From Syntrophobacterales bacterium (GTDB taxonomy: Bacteria; Desulfobacterota; Syntrophobacteria; Syntrophobacterales; Thermodesulforhabdaceae), in NCBI GenBank assembly GCA_026417655.1, contig JAOACS010000021.1, positions 1 to 64,000 of the forward strand: a DNA stretch of 64,000 bases, in the 5' to 3' direction. The notes below the pieces were generated by a model. The model saw nothing but the letters and a program-made list of their open reading frames with translations, was not told the origin of the DNA and ran no database searches. The position numbers and the translations under genes are program-made. Positions 1 to 58,977 of this stretch are shown one piece after another. How positions within the stretch are numbered: position 1 is the stretch's first letter; each line of letters starts with the position of its first letter.

Positions 1-23
1 TCGGAGATGTGTATAAGAGACAG
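1..23. other. Residual Nextera transposon adapter (non-genomic)
   Basis: The first 23 bases are TCGG followed by the 19-base Tn5 mosaic end used in Nextera libraries (AGATGTGTATAAGAGACAG). With its TCGG prefix it matches the 3' end of the read-2 Nextera adapter. The coding frame of the first gene runs into it, so the real gene continues beyond this point in the genome. This is an assembly or trimming artefact, not biology. Genomic sequence starts at base 24. Confidence 0.97.
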
Positions 24-1979
24 ATTAAACATCTGGCGATAGAGCGTATCAATTAATTGAGAATAGGAAAGATGTCCATACTCGCTTTGAAACTCTTGGG
101 AATTTCCAAAGGCATCGATGAGGCTTCTTAAGTCTCCATTGCTTCTTCTCAATCGCTCAGCCCAGTAATCAAGTCCCCCCGGATCCGCCCATCTTCCATA
201 ATAGGCTACATAAGCCTGCTGTATGCGAACCATATAGGGATCTGTAACCGGTTCATTAGTGTATTCGTAAGCCCCTAGATCAACCCCATTCCCTGTAGGT
301 CTTGGAACTCCAAGGACGTCATACGAAGGAACAAGCCCACTTAAACTCCCTACCGGAAGTCCCCTATCGATGGCAGGACTCGCTGACGTTAGATGACCAT
401 CGAAGTTATCTAGGTCTGGTTGTGCAAGCCTCGGATCCTGAATTATATCGTGGGTACCAAACCGAAATCCCGATATATTCTTTACTCCAAAGACGTTATT
501 GTAATCTTCCTGTACAAAGTTTTCAGGATCCCATATGTAGGCACTTCTTTCAAAGGGCTGGAGGAAATCAGTATTTCCAAGGAATATATTATTATACATC
601 ATTACGCCTTCTCTACCACTACACTGGGAAAATTCTCGATCACATTCAACCGAAACGATCACGTCACCCTCACCCGCTAAGGTTGAATTCACTATATAGG
701 AGGAGTCACCATTTTGGAGAGATATAGCTATCGGGCTACCTAATGCTCTACAGTGATCCCCAGAATCTCGAGGTCCCATAAGGGAGAATCCCCGTCGGAA
801 GAAGTAGCCACAATTTCCCACTACAACCGAATTAACAATCAGGGAATTACTTCCAACCTTTAGTTGATTTCCCGCATTTCCGTAGAAAAAACTATCTCTG
901 ATTTCAGCCCGAGCCTCTCCATGGGTATTTCTGCCAAGATAGAGCAGATCTAATCCATCGGAAGTATTATAGCGAAATGTTACATGGTCAAATATCCAAC
1001 TTCCACCAGTTGCCGCTGTCCCAAGTCCATCGCCATATCCTCCGGCGGATTGGGCCCAGCAATGTGAAAAGGATTCGTTGGGTAACTCAACACATCCATT
1101 CCATTCCACAATAACACGGCGAAACACTATGGAGCCGCTATTACTACTAGAAACCCCCAGGGCTCCTACATCCCCATCCCATCCTGCCCAAGCATTTCCA
1201 GCAACTCTGACGTCTTCTATTAGCCAGTCGCTGATACCACCCGCAAGAATCCCCTTATCCCCGAGACCATGGATATTTAGGTTCTTAAGGGTGACATGGG
1301 AAGAACTATGGGCTGTAATCCCTACAGCAGCCCATTCTCCATAGGGATAACGATCATATTGGCAGGGAACAGTAGGATGGGCATATCCACAGGTGGCTCG
1401 ATCGGTAATTTCCAAACACTGAATCTCGGCATGGCTAGTCCCTCTAAGATCGACAACAGTCGTAGCCCTTTGGGTACCCCATAGGGTTGGTGGTGAAGAA
1501 CACCCTTGATCCCAATCTTTTCCTAGAATTCTTGTTGGTTGATTTGGACTGCCTGAAGGCAGAGGAGGCAAATGACATTCGTAGGCCCCTTCAGCTTCGC
1601 ACCAGGTTGGACCTGTATTGGGAGCTCCATAGCCCATCATATAGGTTCCTGGCCCTATAATAAGAGTATCCCCTCCCCTAAGCTTCCATTGTCCATTTGA
1701 GTCGAGGGCGAAAAAGGGGTGAGACCAGGCACAGGCTCTATTATTTCCTGAACCTGGATAAGGTGCATCGGCCGTTCCGGTGCACTGCGTCGCTGTTCCC
1801 CCATCCGTTCTTACATAATAGGTCGCTGAAAAGCTATAATGGCAGACGAACAGACTAAAGATTAGAATGAACCATAGAGGTCGAGAAAGTTTCGGGAGAC
1901 CTCTTTTTGAGACTATGTTTTGAAGGACCCCACAGGGAGGTCTTTGTAATACTATAGTAAGTAATCTCTTTCCAATCAT
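24..1979 (-). CDS. Secreted parallel beta-helix protein with DUF4214 domain, 3' end missing
   Basis: The reverse strand is open from an ATG at 1979 to the adapter junction, 652 codons with no stop, so the C terminus is lost. A basic stretch of about 35 residues precedes a hydrophobic segment (LWFILIFSLF, about residues 38-50) that looks like a signal peptide or membrane anchor. The mature part starts YYVRTDGG and is rich in Asn, Gly, Ser and Cys, typical of right-handed beta-helix surface proteins (recurrent motifs such as IVNSVVVGNC and MYNNIFLGN). The last 75 or so residues (YVAYYGRWADPGGLDYW and SQEFQSEYG) match DUF4214, found in large secreted or glycan-associated proteins. The ribosome site GGGAGG lies just upstream. 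Substrate and function are unknown. A type I secretion system lies 25 kb away and could be the exporter, but this is inference. Confidence 0.85.
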
Positions 1980-2103: not shown

Positions 2104-2613
2104 TCACTGAGTATTATTTAAAAAACTGGAGTGGATCTTAGATATCCTTTCTATGATATAGCTTGTTGAAAATCCTTTAGTTAGCGGAACCGTAACAACT
2201 CTACCTCCGTAGCTTTCCACAAAATCCCTTCCCACTATGGCACTTAAGGCCCAATCACCTCCCTTTACCAACACATCGGGCTTTATCCTACTAATGAGGC
2301 GAAAAGGTGTTGGGTCACTGAATATTGTTACCACATCAACACAGTGAAGTCCTGCTACTAACTCTGCTCGGGCAAGTTCTGGTATAATAGGTCGAAGGCT
2401 GCCCTTAATCTCTCTTACCGATGAGTCCGAATTTATAGCCACCACCAAAATATCTCCCATTCCCTTTGCTTCCTCTAGATACCTAAGATGTCCAAGGTGC
2501 AAAATGTCGAAACAGCCATTGGTAAATACAATCTTTAGGCTGTGAGCTCGTAGATCCTTACAAAGTGTAATGAGATCCTCTTCTTCGAAGATCTTTTCTC
2601 TAGCCTTTACCAT
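2104..2613 (-). CDS. rfaE2: D-glycero-beta-D-manno-heptose 1-phosphate adenylyltransferase
   Basis: A 169-residue nucleotidyltransferase matching the C-terminal half of HldE (RfaE domain II). It transfers AMP to heptose-1-phosphate to make ADP-heptose for the lipopolysaccharide inner core, in the cytoplasm. The cytidylyltransferase-like signature is clear: FTNGCFDILHLGHLRYL (HxGH), followed by VAINSD and later DVLVKGGDW. The stand-alone form is usual where the kinase half is a separate gene; no hldE kinase is in this window. The start at 2613 was chosen because AAGGAA precedes it; a further upstream ATG lies deep inside the neighbouring gene. It overlaps the upstream hypothetical gene by 14 bases, so the two are probably translationally coupled. 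The presence of this enzyme supports a Gram-negative LPS-bearing cell. Confidence 0.93.
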   Translation of the reverse strand: MVKAREKIFEEEDLITLCKDLRAHSLKIVFTNGCFDILHLGHLRYLEEAKGMGDILVVAINSDSSVREIKGSLRPIIPELARAELVAGLHCVDVVTIFSDPTPFRLISRIKPDVLVKGGDWALSAIVGRDFVESYGGRVVTVPLTKGFSTSYIIERISKIHSSFLNNTQ

Positions 2614-3094
2614 AGGGTTCCTTGTTTTTAAATTCCTTAAGCTTTTCTGCAATCCGTTTTTTAACTATCTCAATTTCCTGCTCACCCATACCCCGTCTCA
2701 AAACCAGATGATCGCTTTCTAACTCTTCAATAAGCCCTTCCTGAAACATCTTTACCCAGAAAAAAAGGCTTTCTATAATTGAATATTCAGAACAAAGGAT
2801 CTCTCCTGGATCTTGTACAACAATTTTACCCTTGAAGATCTCTTTAAGCTCCTGAAGAGCCTTACGTCCTGTGCCTCGCTTCTTTGGACCTAGGACCTCT
2901 AGATAGTATATTGTTAAATTCCTTCCCCCTTCCTGATTCAACTCTATACTTGCTATGCCGTGATAGACCCAAGGTTTTTCAAAGGCTACAATCTCCATAG
3001 ATCCAAAGCCCTTAAGGATCGTAAGTAACTCTTTATAGGAATAGTTCCCGTAGGCAGACCTCCAAATAAGACCTTTCCATTCAATCTCGGCCAA
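2600..3094 (-). CDS. Hypothetical protein, 164 aa
   Basis: I do not recognise a family. The start is a TTG, supported by an AGGAG site seven bases upstream; the nearby ATG is in another frame and runs into a stop at once. The protein has no signal peptide or membrane segment. It ends in a charged, probably helical tail (EQEIEIVKKRIAEKLKEF). A central stretch (LTIYYLEVLGPKKRGTGRKA) has a Gly/Arg-rich turn reminiscent of an acyl-CoA or nucleotide binding loop of GNAT proteins, but I do not claim that fold. It lies 30 bases downstream of the Sec-candidate ORF and overlaps rfaE2, so it is part of a trmL-to-rfaE2 operon. Confidence 0.7.
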   Translation of the reverse strand: MAEIEWKGLIWRSAYGNYSYKELLTILKGFGSMEIVAFEKPWVYHGIASIELNQEGGRNLTIYYLEVLGPKKRGTGRKALQELKEIFKGKIVVQDPGEILCSEYSIIESLFFWVKMFQEGLIEELESDHLVLRRGMGEQEIEIVKKRIAEKLKEFKNKEPYGKG

Positions 3095-3124: not shown

Positions 3125-3421
3125 TTAACTCATACGGCAGCTACCACCCCTTTTGATCCGTAATCTTCCCGTGCCAGCGACACTAAGGTTTTTCTTAGCT
3201 TCTTCAACAGCCTTTTTTAAAGATTCTCGCCATTGATATACATCCTCTGATAAAATTTGAACCGAAGTCAATGGGGGTTGCTTCTTAGAGCAATCCTTGC
3301 TCTCGAAAATAACAACTCAGTAACCATTCCTTTTTTTGATAACTACAGTGTAGAAACCATACTCCTTAAGCTCAGGACATGCCTGCTCTAACTTTTCCAT
3401 CATACCGTTTTCTTCCTTCAT
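3125..3421 (-). CDS. Candidate selenoprotein, 98 aa, in-frame TGA at codon 35
   Basis: An ATG at 3421, preceded by AGGAAA, opens a frame that runs to TAA at 3125 and is interrupted only by TGA at 3319-3317. Codons on both sides look protein-like: FYTVVIKKRNGY before the TGA, VVIFESKDCSKK after it, then an amphipathic stretch ending in a basic tail. Thirteen bases after the TGA is a perfect 7-bp hairpin of the bacterial SECIS type. Residue 35 falls in a predicted beta hairpin with a Cys seven residues later. I recognise no family. The alternatives are a nonsense mutation of a TGG (Trp) codon or a decayed gene. It sits in a tight operon, 35 bases after trmL and 30 before the next gene, with its own ribosome site, which favours a living gene. 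Confidence 0.55.
3287..3303 (-). promoter_or_regulatory. Candidate bacterial SECIS hairpin after TGA at 3317-3319
   Basis: On the minus strand AGAGCAA, loop GGA and TTGCTCT form a perfect 7-bp stem beginning 13 nt after the in-frame TGA. Drawn as a 5-bp stem (AGAGC/GCTCT), it has a 7-base apical loop AAGGATT with GG at the third and fourth positions. This is close to the selD element in this window (4-bp stem, loop CTGGAGT) and the fdhA element (5-bp stem, loop TGGTCTG). Known E. coli SECIS elements have a hairpin about 11 nt from the UGA with a GGUCU loop that SelB binds. Confidence 0.5.
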
Positions 3422-3456
3422 GGAAATTTCCTACTGTTTCGTCAGAATATTAAAAA

Positions 3457-3945
3457 CTAGTAGGCCTTAGCCCTTAATTGTCCTATCTGTCTAAGGGCCT
3501 CAAACAGGGCTATCCCAACTGCCGTAGATAAATTGAGGCTCCTCACCTTAGATCTATCAATAGGAATGTAGGCAACAGTATAGTTTCCTGAGAAAATGAG
3601 TTCCCCCGGAAGTCCTTGAGTTTCCGAACCAAATACTAGACAGTCACCAGGTTTATAAGAGATTTCATCGTAATATACGGTTCCCCTAGTGGAATACAGG
3701 ATACATCGCGAAGGGTTTATGGTTTCCAAAAACTCCTCAAAGGACCTATGGACATGAAGCTCCACATGGGGCCAGTAGTCTAGGCCTGCTCGTTTAAGAT
3801 GGCGATCAGAAAGCTGAAATCCCAAAGGCTCTATTAAATGTAAGGGAATGTGGGTTGCGGCACATGTTCTTGCTATGTTTCCAGTATTTTGGGGAATCTC
3901 GGGCTGATAAAGAACAACTCTTAGCTGCCTATTTTGACTGCCCAT
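3457..3945 (-). CDS. trmL: tRNA (cytidine/uridine-34-2'-O)-methyltransferase TrmL-like
   Basis: A SPOUT-class methyltransferase of 162 residues that uses S-adenosylmethionine to 2'-O-methylate the wobble base of certain leucine tRNAs. Family motifs are visible in order: VVLYQPEIPQNTGNIARTC at the N terminus, LVFGSETQGLP in the middle, and the C-terminal knot segment RSLNLSTAVGIALFEALRQ. Length agrees with the family (about 155-165). The start at 3945 was chosen because GTAGAAGGT precedes it and the conserved region follows directly; a longer ORF begins 18 codons upstream without support. It is the upstream gene of the short Sec-candidate ORF. Confidence 0.92.
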   Translation of the reverse strand: MGSQNRQLRVVLYQPEIPQNTGNIARTCAATHIPLHLIEPLGFQLSDRHLKRAGLDYWPHVELHVHRSFEEFLETINPSRCILYSTRGTVYYDEISYKPGDCLVFGSETQGLPGELIFSGNYTVAYIPIDRSKVRSLNLSTAVGIALFEALRQIGQLRAKAY

Positions 3946-4029
3946 ACCTTCTACTTCCTGTAGAGGTCCTTTGTTGATATCTCGAACTGAGAGTAACACA
4001 CTACAGGAGTTTTACACAAGCCTTCTCTG

Positions 4030-4638
4030 TCAGATCAAGAGTCGAAGGATAAATTCCCCCGACTCTTGAATCGTTTTATATGGAAAAAAGGGTTCCCTCA
4101 TATAGGCCAAAAGGGCTCCAAGACTAAAAGCAAGACCTATACTCAATTCCGCTGCCTTCGAAAAGGTAATTCCAGCTAAAGCCGATAAACCCTTCCCCAA
4201 ACTGAAGGGAGGTATTGGGATAACAAGATTTGCCGCCGCAACATAGCAATTTATAGTTATGGCAAGCCTAAATACTGTTGAGGGTAAGATAGTCGTATAC
4301 AAGGTGGCTATAATACCTGCGAGAGCAAGATTTCCTATTGGTGCTGCCAGGCAGTAGATAAACCTATACAATCTATTATCCCCCAAGGGATCCCCCGAAG
4401 ATATTCTGTATTGTTTTGCCCATCCCCAACCTGTTATTAAAAAGAGAGGGATAGCAAGAGGATCGATAAACTGAAAAGGATGTGGAACTGGCTCTTTCTT
4501 CATCTTGTCTGGAGGAACCAAAATCATCAGAGAGAAGTATTGAGCAATTCCTTGAACTCCTGAAGCGAGAGCCACCGACACTGCCCAGGCTATCCATAAC
4601 TCGACAGAGGATGAAATCCTCGTCACAATCCAGTCCAT
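4030..4638 (-). CDS. Site-2-protease-like (M50) membrane protein lacking catalytic residues
   Basis: A 202-residue multispanning membrane protein. The HPFQFIDPLAIPLFLI and GWGWAKQ segments and the later NLVIPIPPF segment follow the order and spacing of FtsH-type M50 rhomboid-like zinc proteases (normally HEYAH, then HPxxHIDP, GWAKP, then NLLPIPPLDG). The zinc motif HExxH is absent: the equivalent first segment reads SGVQGIAQ. The second motif has PIPPFSLGK in place of PLDGG. The protein therefore probably cannot cleave peptides and may be a pseudoprotease. Start ATG at 4638 has AGGAAAGG just before it. It follows the resolvase-like gene by 16 bases and probably shares its transcript. Confidence 0.7.
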   Translation of the reverse strand: MDWIVTRISSSVELWIAWAVSVALASGVQGIAQYFSLMILVPPDKMKKEPVPHPFQFIDPLAIPLFLITGWGWAKQYRISSGDPLGDNRLYRFIYCLAAPIGNLALAGIIATLYTTILPSTVFRLAITINCYVAAANLVIPIPPFSLGKGLSALAGITFSKAAELSIGLAFSLGALLAYMREPFFPYKTIQESGEFILRLLI

Positions 4639-4654
4639 CAACCTTTCCTAATAC

Positions 4655-4981
4655 TCATTGTACCGTTAGAAGTTCTACACCTTCAGCACCCAGCTCAAAA
4701 AGAATCCCCTCGATCTCATCTTTTGTGCTTCCAAGTCTGTCAAGGCTGTAAACTACAAGTCGTTTTACTTTGTGGCGTTCAATATCCATAAAAAGGTCTC
4801 TTCTGCTTTTGTAAAATTGCACAGAATCATTTACCTCTATTCCCCATCGACTTTTCATCGCCTCAACAATCAACTCTTTTTGTCTCTGCAAGGGACCTTC
4901 GTAGGAATCTCCGTCCTCTGGTGTTAGCTCCGATTTCCTAACCATAAGATAGACCGCTGTGATCTTTTCGTCTCTACTCAT
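4655..4981 (-). CDS. Stand-alone resolvase-like (serine recombinase N-terminal) domain
   Basis: A 108-residue protein made of just a resolvase-type fold: VYLMVRKSE at the N terminus (position of the catalytic Ser region), a Gln-Arg motif (GPLQRQKELI), and the end motif LVVYSLDRLGSTKDEIEGIL that matches the DRLxR helix of serine recombinases. The normal Arg after DRLG is replaced, and no DNA-binding HTH or zinc-ribbon domain follows. No inverted repeats are visible nearby, so it does not look like an active mobile element. It may be a domesticated or regulatory derivative. Confidence 0.6.
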   Translation of the reverse strand: MSRDEKITAVYLMVRKSELTPEDGDSYEGPLQRQKELIVEAMKSRWGIEVNDSVQFYKSRRDLFMDIERHKVKRLVVYSLDRLGSTKDEIEGILFELGAEGVELLTVQ

Positions 4982-36985: not shown

Positions 36986-38047
36986 ATGAAAAGGGATGAA
37001 GAGGAAAGAGTGATTAAGCTCGCTGAAACGGTTAGAGCGGCAGGTTGAGCTGCTAAAATCGGGCCTGGAGTGCTCACCGAACTTCTTAAAGATCTTCCTG
37101 TAGCAAGGGATGAGAGAGTTCTTGTGGGACATGAGACCTCTGATGATGCAGGGGTTTTCCTACTTAGTGAACATATAGCTTTAGTCCAGACTGTAGATTT
37201 TCTTACACCCATTGTAAATAACCCCTACGATTTTGGCCGCATCGCTGCAGCGAATGCTCTAAGTGACATTTATGCTATGGGAGCGATTCCCCTTACCGCG
37301 ATGAACATAGTCTGTTTCCCCACAAAGAAGTTGGATCTCCTTTATCTTAGGGAAATCCTTAGAGGAGGTCTTGAGAAAATACACGAAGCTGGAGCTTTTC
37401 TTATAGGTGGTCATAGCGTTGAAGATGATGAAATAAAATACGGTCTCTCTGTAACAGGTATCGCCTCTCCCCAGAGAATATTTACAAATGCGGGAGCCCG
37501 TCAAGGAGACGCTATCGTGATTACAAAGCCTCTTGGAACAGGTATTCTCGCTACAGCCCTCAAAGGAAAACTTATCTCAGATGCCGATATGGAAGAGGCG
37601 GTCGAATGGATGGCAACCCTTAACAAGACAGCTTCAGAGGTTGCAAAAAACTTCTCTGTCCACGGCTGCACCGATGTAACCGGCTTTGGTTTGCTTGGTC
37701 ATCTTCTGGAAATGGCTATTGCAAGCAAAGTAGTGATAAACCTACAAGCATCTTCAATACCCATTTTTCCAAAGGCCTACGAGTTTGCCTCCATGGGAAT
37801 TATTCCGGCAGGAAGTTATACAAATAAAAACTTTTGTTCAGACTATCTAGAGGTGGATCCCTCTATAGATCCAGTTCTTCTTGATATCCTGGCTGATACT
37901 CAAACTTCTGGTGGACTACTCATTAGTCTTCCAACCTCCGAAGCTTACAAGCTGGTAGAGGAATTAAGAGGAAGAGGACTTAGTGTAGCTTCAATCATTG
38001 GCCAGGTAGTAGAGAAAGGAAAGGGGAAAATTATTGTCACAGCCTGA
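36986..38047 (+). CDS. selD: Selenide, water dikinase, selenoprotein form (TGA = Sec21)
   Basis: SelD makes selenophosphate from selenide and ATP. From ATG at 36986 the frame reads MKRDEEERVIKLAETVRAAG, then TGA at 37046-37048, then AAKIGPGVLTELL, which is the family active site (Sec or Cys followed by AAK, Lys catalytic). Total 353 residues including Sec21, the family norm. The ordinary ORF call starts only at 37070, after the TGA, and would drop the catalytic Sec-Lys. The rest (GHETSDDAGVFLL, QTVDFLTPIVNNPYDFG, ADTQTSGGLLISLP) is canonical. A SECIS hairpin follows the TGA. The C terminus converges on and overlaps hdrA by 11 bases. Confidence 0.96.
37061..37075 (+). promoter_or_regulatory. 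bSECIS hairpin in selD
   Basis: GGGC, loop CTGGAGT and GCTC form a 4-bp stem with one G-U wobble, starting 12 nt after the in-frame TGA at 37046-37048. Spacing and 7-base GG-containing loop resemble the fdhA element. A longer alternative stem pairs TGAGC (37046-37050) with GCTCA (37072-37076). Confidence 0.55.
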
Positions 38048-56271: not shown

Positions 56272-58977
56272 CTATTCCCCTTTTCCAACCTTTTCAATTC
56301 GCACAGCCGTAACCTTTAACTCTGGAATCTTTGCAACTGGATCAAGTTCCTGGCTCCCTGTAAGAACATTAACCCTCGCCTCATGGAAATGGAATGTGGA
56401 AAAGACCTCTCCTCGCTTTACCCTCTCACTCAGTTTAGCCTTCAACTCTATGCTTCCTCTCCTTCCCACAACCTTCACCATATCCTCATCGGACACACCA
56501 ATAATGTGAGCATCTATCGGATGGATCTCGAGAATTGGTTCGGGAGCTCCATAATTTAACACCTTGCACTTTCTGGTCATGGTTCCAGTATGGTAATGGT
56601 AGTAATTCCTACCTGTGACTAAAACAAAGGGATATTCCCTATCGGGTTGTTCTACAGGTGGCCTATATTCAACAGGCACCAAAAGACCCTTTCCTCTCGC
56701 TATCTTACCCACATGAAGGATTGGTGTTCCAGGATGATCTTCCGTCGGACAGGGCCACTGGATTCCAACCCTGTCAATCCGCCTATAGGTTATTCCCGCA
56801 TATTGAGGCGTAACTTTTCTGATCTCTTCAAATATCTCCTCCGCATCCCTATAGGGCATAGGATAACCTAATCTTTCTGAAAGCTCTGCAATAATCTTCC
56901 AATCGTCCTTTGTACCACCCTTGGGCTTAAGGGCTCTTCTCACCCTTTGAACCCTTCGTTCAGTGTTTGTGAAGGTCCCCTCCTTTTCGGAGAAGGCACA
57001 GGCAGGTAAAACTACATGGGCGAAGTCACAGGTTTCGGTGAAAAAGATATCCTGCACAACTAGAAGATCTAGCTTTCTCAAAGCTTCTTCCATGTGATGA
57101 AGATCTGGATCGGTTAGCACAGGATTTTCTCCCATAATGTAAAGAGCCTTAACCTTTCCCTCTATGGCCGCATGGCCCATTTCGACAACGGTAAGACCTG
57201 GCTCCGCACTGAGCTTAGCATTCCATAGCTTTTCAAATTTTCTTTTTACCTCTTCCACATCCACCCGTTGATATCCAGGATAGAAGACGGGAAGACCTCC
57301 CATGTCACAGGCCCCTTGAACATTGTTTTGGCCTCTTAATGGGTTCACACCCGTCCCAGGTTTACCAATATGGCCACAGACAAGGGCGAGATTAGAAAGA
57401 CTCTTAACATTATCGGTTCCTTTAGCGTGCTGGGTTACTCCCATGCAGTAGATAATTGAGGCTCTCTCAGCCTTAGCATACATCCTTGCGGCCGAGATAA
57501 TGTCATCCTTAGGAACTCCCGTTATCTCCTCAGCTAACTCGGGAGTATACTTTTCTACAACTTTTAAAAGCTCTTCAAAGCCTTCTGTATTCTCCTCAAC
57601 AAATTTTTTGTCATAGAGTTCTTCACGGATAATAACATTCAACATAGCGTTAAAAAGAGCTATGTCTGTCCCCGCCTTTAATGGAAGATGAAGCACCGCA
57701 TCATCAACAAGGTCGATACGCCGAGGATCGATAATAATGAGATTCGTCCCCTTCATTCGAGCAAGTTTCCTAACCTTCATACCAAAGACGGGGTGGTTTT
57801 CGGTGGTGTTACTACCAACCACCAGTATAACTTCCGCATCCTCAATATCGCCCATCGAATTGGTCATAGCACCAGAGCCAAGAGTTGTGGCCAGACCAGC
57901 CACTGTTGAGGAGTGTCAGAGACGGGCACAGTGATCGACATTGTTGGTTCCGATCACTGCCCGCATAAACTTTTGGAACACATAATTGTCTTCGTTCGTG
58001 CATCGAGCAGAACAGAGACCTGCAATAGCAGACGCACCATGCTTTTCCTTTATTTCTTTTAGCTTCTTTGCAACATAGTTAAGAGCCTCATCCCAACTAA
58101 CTTCCCGGAATGAGCCTCCCTGTCGAATAAGAGGTTTCGTAAGCCTCTTGTCGCTGTTTATAAACTCAAAACCGAAACGACCTTTAACGCAAAGCGTTCC
58201 ATAATTGGGAGGAACAGCTTCATCGGTAGTAACCTTTATGACCTGACCGCTTGCCACATTGAGTTCAATTACACATCCTACACCACAATAGGGACATACC
58301 GTCTTTGTCTTAGTCTTTTCCCAGGGTCTAGCCTTTAGAGGACTCACAGCTTCCGTAAGGGCTCCAACCGGACAGACCGAAAGACATTCTCCACAGGCTA
58401 TACACTTTTCAGGATGGGCTGGAAAGATTCTTGGAGTTCCATCTTCTTTACCTGCTTCAAGAACTCCACATCCCACCCTTTCTAAACACACATGAACGCA
58501 ACGTTGGCAAGCTACGCATCGGCTTGGAAAATAATTGATGCCAATGGTTGACCATTTCACCGGGGGCTTATGAAGCATCGGAACCCCAACTGAACCTTCC
58601 GCAATAGCCCTATCATATCCAAGCTCATACACAAGATCCTGAAGCTTACACTCCGCTGCCTTGTCACAGATAGGACAATCAAGAGGATGATCAAGAAGGA
58701 GAAGCTTTAAAATATCCCGTCTCATTTCGAGAAGCTTTTCCGTGGTGGTTCTGATGTTCATGCCATCCGTCACCACCTGCACACATGAAGGTTGAGGCTG
58801 ATCATAGCCATCAACTTCCACAATACAGAGCCTACATGCTCCAATGGGAAGAAGATCCTCAAGAAAGCATAGGGTAGGGATGTAAATCCCATTGGCCCTT
58901 GCCACCTCTAGAATCGTCTTCCCAGGCTCAGTCTGTATCTCCCTTCCATCAATCGTTACAGTTATCATAGCCGACAT
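56272..58977 (-). CDS. NuoG/FdhA selenoprotein: formate dehydrogenase catalytic subunit in the nuo operon
   Basis: A 901-residue protein that looks split into two frames only because TGA (57918-57916) encodes selenocysteine 354. The joined text is VDHCARL, Sec, HSSTVAGLATTLGSG, the exact formate dehydrogenase active site with the conserved His after Sec. N-terminal part: 2Fe-2S (C37, C48, C51, C65), HisCys3 (LLLDHPLDCPICDKAAEC), ferredoxin motifs CVACQRCVHVC and CIACGECLSVC, and the cluster before MoCo (CPYCGVGC, LCVKGRFG). The C-terminal part binds molybdopterin (VGSNTTENHP, IIDPRRID, GENPVLTDPD). NuoG of E. coli has no Mo active site. Start 58977 has AGGGGA; GTG 59016 and ATG 58968 are alternatives. 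Confidence 0.95.
57887..57903 (-). promoter_or_regulatory. bSECIS hairpin in fdhA/nuoG
   Basis: On the minus strand GTGGC, loop TGGTCTG, GCCAC form a perfect 5-bp stem, 12 nt after the TGA. The GGTCTG loop matches that of the E. coli fdhF SECIS element bound by SelB. Confidence 0.85.

Follow-up and report, generated by a model that had tools for sequence, protein, structure and literature searches.

A putative small selenoprotein family encoded beside a GNAT-fold-like protein in Syntrophobacteria

Results

Organization of the locus

The window analyzed here, a stretch of 64,000 nucleotides from a contig of a Syntrophobacterales bacterium, carries near its beginning a short minus-strand reading frame with one internal TGA, which is flanked by trmL on one side and by a gene for a GNAT-fold-like protein on the other. 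The features referred to below are the following:

3457 to 3999, minus strand: trmL (SpoU-family RNA methyltransferase), the upstream neighbor
3429 to 3433, minus strand: probable ribosome-binding site TAGGA (AGGA), about 8 nt before the ATG, read from the sequence
3125 to 3421, minus strand: predicted selenoprotein gene of 98 codons, ATG at 3421-3419, TAA at 3127-3125, selenocysteine (Sec) as residue 35
3317 to 3319, minus strand: putative Sec codon TGA (read 3319-3317), TGA in 38 of 38 homologs
3287 to 3303, minus strand: putative SECIS hairpin, stem 3303-3297 with 3293-3287, loop GGA at 3296-3294
2600 to 3094, minus strand: gene of the proposed downstream partner, 164 residues, GNAT-fold-like, RGTGR motif at residues 73-77
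2104 to 2652, minus strand: rfaE2-type cytidylyltransferase, found downstream in part of the selenoprotein family
37019 to 37942, plus strand: selD, with its own in-frame TGA at 37046

Translated on the minus strand from 3421 to 3125, the frame reads MKEENGMMEKLEQACPELKEYGFYTVVIKKRNGY-U-VVIFESKDCSKKQPPLTSVQ...SCRMS, with U35 as its single in-frame TGA and TAA as its end. It is separated by 35 nt from the end of trmL and by 30 nt from the start of the next gene. An initial annotation of this DNA had described a frame of 98 codons with the TGA as sole interruption and a ribosome-binding site of its own; both the coordinates and the AGGA upstream of the ATG are borne out, and the strand, which had not been stated, is the minus strand.

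Two further minus-strand genes follow on the far side of trmL. The one next to it (4030-4641) encodes a protein of 203 residues without a Pfam match, and the other (4655-4981) a 108-residue resolvase N-terminal-domain protein lacking the rest of the recombinase; both are kept in the nearest relative, with 70% and 81% identity, respectively. At the start of the contig, positions 1-23 are presumably Nextera transposase adapter sequence (AGATGTGTATAAGAGACAG), so that the last residues (..LSLIHIS) of the open reading frame at 3-1979 (minus strand) would be adapter-derived rather than genomic.

Selenocysteine machinery

That the genome possesses a working Sec pathway had been claimed before and is supported here by the finding of SelB (contig C3, 6011-7909), SelA (contig C4), selD and a tRNA-Sec with the anticodon UCA (TCA in the DNA). 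Two further Sec sites proposed in the window were likewise recovered, namely the TGA at 37046 in selD (plus strand) and an FdhA-type site at 57918 (minus strand). Throughout the class, SelB scores above cut-off in 52 of 56 genomes. A second locus (G000:C1:18946-19033) lies just above the gathering threshold for tRNA-Sec, with 51.8 bits against 47, and is probably another long-armed tRNA.

Conservation of the TGA codon

With E-values up to 1 allowed, matches were obtained in 37 of 40 related genomes, and 35 of these 37 have exactly one in-frame TGA. In the class as a whole, the family occurs in 39 of 56 genomes, with the Sec codon covered in 38; in the 39th carrier (G026), which is not among the 38, the contig ends just after the Sec codon. 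The name Syntrophobacteria for this class is inferred from the organisms met in a motif scan: Desulfacinum infernum, D. hydrothermale, Desulfoferrobacter suflitae and Syntrophobacteraceae MAGs. The selenoprotein was not found in the class genome G022, where the downstream gene starts 147 bases from the contig end and the copy may just have been lost to it; in G011 and G030 neither the selenoprotein nor the downstream gene was found, and in family f6 the downstream gene is kept with the selenoprotein absent.

Codon 35 is TGA in all 38 species, which span four family-level groups, and it is never TGG, TGC or TGT. This speaks directly to a competing reading put forward in the initial annotation, a nonsense mutation that turned the TGG of a Trp codon into TGA; the gene would then be either decayed or translated by leaky decoding into a Trp protein. 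While a β strand would suit Trp, and low-rate decoding of TGA as Trp does exist, not a single homolog has TGG at position 35, whereas the invariant Trp64 is encoded by TGG in 38 of 38. Nor is there any sign of decay after the TGA in relatives: the codons ahead of the TGA have a pN/pS of 0.192, pooled over 15 species pairs, and those that follow it one of 0.214, or of 0.246 if the hairpin codons are excluded. Equal constraint on both sides implies that the part following the TGA is a working protein. Together with the conservation and compensation of the hairpin described below, this leaves the Trp reading with practically no standing. A set of homologs with Trp throughout and no hairpin, which had been named as an outcome that would refute a selenoprotein, did not emerge: wherever the alignment covers the position, it holds TGA rather than a Cys or Trp codon. 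Besides the start and Sec, the residues P50, L51, S53, W64, A71 and A75 are invariant.

A selenoprotein family usually draws support from Cys homologs. No homolog with Cys, Trp or any other residue in place of Sec was detected in the class (56 genomes), in a sample of the phylum (395) or in one further class (85), and upstream of the GNAT-like genes of family f6 neither a Cys nor a degenerate form was found. For other phyla, coverage was limited to a single motif scan, with a motif that is itself bound to the SECIS. As the genomes searched belong mostly to one phylum, the description of the family as Sec-only is provisional. Candidate relatives outside the class (G112, G319 and G461) were short, some of them with stops, and were judged to be chance matches.

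A conserved hairpin downstream of the TGA

Thirteen nucleotides after the TGA, the sequence AGAGCAA-GGA-TTGCTCT can form a stem of 7 bp around a 3-nt loop, and RNA folding confirms this hairpin, which had been noted from the sequence before. Over the 42 nt from the TGA, the minimum free energy (MFE) is -9.3 kcal/mol with z = -1.24, and 24 of 200 shuffled sequences fold as well. With so unremarkable a z for the single sequence, the hairpin alone is weak evidence, and it is conservation that carries the case. In the gap-free alignment of 38 species, GG in the loop is invariant, and pairing holds in 88.9% of the cells of the six-pair stem, as against 25-43% when the stem is slid; two-sided changes occur in 16 cells versus 4.7 in shuffles. 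Adding the pair 23/27 gives 87.3% paired and 23 cells with two-sided changes. On a tree built from the neighboring genes and the rest of the selenoprotein, about three lineages replaced GC by AT at pair 18/32; at pair 22/28, AT was replaced by GC on two occasions (G018/G028; G010) and by CG on one (G029). The independent compensatory events are few, and a tree-aware sign test is unable to reach significance.

The published bSECIS model asks for a loop of 3-9 nt, G in the first two loop positions, a distance of 16-37 nt from the UGA and an MFE of -7.5 kcal/mol or below (PMC13188914), and the hairpin satisfies all four constraints. Its identification as a bacterial SECIS is, in the absence of experiment, well supported by the comparison of sequences. 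The same layout of a stop codon followed by structured RNA would also be expected for programmed stop readthrough without selenium, yielding a short product of 34 residues along with the long one. Such a mechanism, however, is at odds with the exclusive use of TGA, TAA and TAG being found at codon 35 in none of the 38 species, with the fit of the hairpin and its loop GG to the bSECIS constraints, and with the presence of SelB in these genomes; we regard it as very improbable. Thus, the invariant TGA, the covariation of the hairpin and the equal constraint on both sides of the TGA support the proposal of a new short selenoprotein made in the initial annotation. With a probability that we put at roughly 0.95-0.97, and with no experiment at hand, the 98-codon gene appears to encode a genuine small selenoprotein with Sec inserted at codon 35, where SelB and tRNA-Sec(UCA) would read the UGA as directed by the hairpin.

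RNA constraint on the protein sequence

Some of the compensatory changes are not neutral at the protein level. In pair 18/32, a silent exchange in a Glu codon (GAG to GAA) is paired with a non-silent one in which Ser45 (TCN) becomes Phe or Leu, and the changes in pair 22/28 convert Cys44 to Arg (three) or Gly (two) and alter the codon before Asp. That compensation is paid for in amino acids indicates that the RNA structure overrides the protein sequence. Codon choice within the hairpin is frozen, with AGC for Ser41 in 35 of 35 and TGC for Cys44 in 33 of 33, as opposed to the free choice for Cys15 outside the hairpin (17 TGT, 15 TGC). Judged by these patterns, the motif ESxDC(S) would be the SECIS showing through, partly or even largely, rather than a matter of protein function. 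Cys44 was considered as a resolving partner of Sec35 and found unsupported, since it is lost in five species with a changed or broken stem pair and its codon is otherwise frozen. Cys15, present in 32 of 38, is a better candidate for this role, yet not a universal one. Every family member keeps Cys15, Cys44 or both, which may be chance at these counts.

Absence from curated libraries and catalogs

In line with the initial annotation, which had not recognized the family, none of the 38 members reaches a curated cut-off in Pfam or NCBIfam, where the best E-values of 0.025 and 0.066, respectively, belong to implausible families; no selenoprotein model of NCBIfam is matched by any of them. A profile search of the PDB with the selenoprotein gave implausible matches only, and a literature search found no description of the family. 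Neither the catalog of 2026 with its 119 families and subfamilies (PMC13188914), judged by its domain and motif columns, nor the nine new deep-Sep families (PMC12013277), judged by domain or motif, contains a counterpart, although family sequences were not compared in either case. Within the libraries and catalogs checked, what is almost certainly a selenoprotein family, as inferred from sequence, would therefore be new.

With the cataloged bSECIS selenoproteins (PMC13188914) the family shares the in-frame UGA, the downstream hairpin with GG in the loop, its spacing and stability, and the Sec machinery, but it differs in that no redox motif such as CxxU or UxxC is invariant in it and no Cys homolog was detected. 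The deep-Sep hypothetical proteins DG, DW and DF of Thermodesulfobacteriota (PMC12013277), for which the NCBIfam models NF049953, NF041197 and NF049942 exist (PMC13188914), are likewise selenoproteins of small families and unknown function from sulfate-reducer lineages; in contrast to the family described here, all of them have Cys homologs.

The downstream GNAT-fold-like protein

In every locus read, the gene directly after that of the selenoprotein is the GNAT-like one; trmL lies ahead of the selenoprotein gene in nearly all. In L076, trmL was not found although upstream DNA is present; L077 and L078, also without trmL, begin at or inside the selenoprotein gene. In five genomes of one genus-level group (G016, G021, G023, G025 and G032; loci L070-L074), no stop codon separates the selenoprotein frame from the GNAT-like protein, which gives one frame of about 230 codons after the Sec codon; a separate second product from a retained downstream ATG is possible in these species. 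In others, the two frames overlap or stand close. Family f6 (L114, L116-L127) has the GNAT-like protein without the selenoprotein, often in two copies, and no trmL was found beside these genes.

The structure model of the GNAT-like protein is of high confidence (pLDDT 90.2, pTM 0.84), and its structural matches are nearly all GNAT proteins, the best being the C-terminal domain of M. tuberculosis isocitrate lyase 2 (ICL2; Z 7.6, rmsd 3.6 over 99 residues). It resembles this and the other nearest solved chains, SSAT and AAC(3), at the level of the fold, and it has an R-G-x-G-R motif, of the type of the acetyl-CoA motif RxxGxG, in which G74 and G76 are invariant. It departs from the superfamily in that neither a GNAT model nor any other family model of Pfam or NCBIfam matches it, and in that Z stays below 8. 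On the strength of the model, we refer to it as GNAT-fold-like, not as a proven acetyltransferase.

The model of the selenoprotein is of moderate confidence (pLDDT 75.6, pTM 0.60) and has an α-β-β-β-α arrangement, the second strand of which begins at Sec. No clear fold match was obtained for it, and its match lists contain no thioredoxin-type chain; weak resemblances to HPF/YfiA and to dsRBD were not used. In the alignment of 38 species, neither UxxC nor CxxU is invariant.

Discussion

What can be inferred about the role of this selenoprotein? Its constant position before the GNAT-like gene and the fusion of the two frames incline us, with some reserve, to the view that the two proteins work together, a link that rests on gene adjacency and a single fusion clade. 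The selenoprotein would then be the reactive member of the pair, in a redox or a nucleophilic capacity, and its partner would be the protein encoded just downstream, the fold of which suggests acyl-CoA binding, an activity that is itself inferred; Sec35, oxidized or reversibly modified, could control this partner or feed it. That Sec35 serves as such a switch or nucleophile is a tentative suggestion, its chemistry being inferred, and we consider it unlikely rather than likely. The most specific form of the proposal, a Sec-only family whose Sec35 acts as nucleophile or redox switch in the acyl-CoA chemistry of a sometimes-fused GNAT-fold partner, is more doubtful still and little more than speculation. 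If true, it would amount to selenium control of acyl transfer, to our knowledge a role unknown for any selenoprotein.

A true selenoprotein could also act independently of the GNAT-like protein, for example as a small peroxide or thiol reductase or as an RNA-modification helper linked to trmL, which is a near-constant neighbor as well. The occurrence of the GNAT-like protein without the selenoprotein in family f6 would agree with this, as would the view that most uncharacterized selenoproteins are redox proteins (2026 review, PMC13188914). However, fusion has occurred with the GNAT-like protein and not with trmL, and a UxxC or CxxU motif is not invariant. While an independent role is thus a serious possibility, to which we give less than even odds, we favor a joint function with the GNAT-like protein.

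Whatever its role, the family adds a selenoprotein that is missing from the curated libraries and the 2026 catalog, and it does so in cultured organisms, Desulfacinum and Desulfoferrobacter; for Syntrophobacter fumaroxidans, at least 39 selenoprotein genes have been reported. Since the genomes searched yielded no Cys form, the family may be the mark of a reaction in which sulfur is a poor substitute for selenium. Ordinary gene callers will truncate the gene at codon 35. Finally, an RNA element within the coding sequence that is able to dictate residues calls for caution in the reading of redox motifs that adjoin Sec codons.
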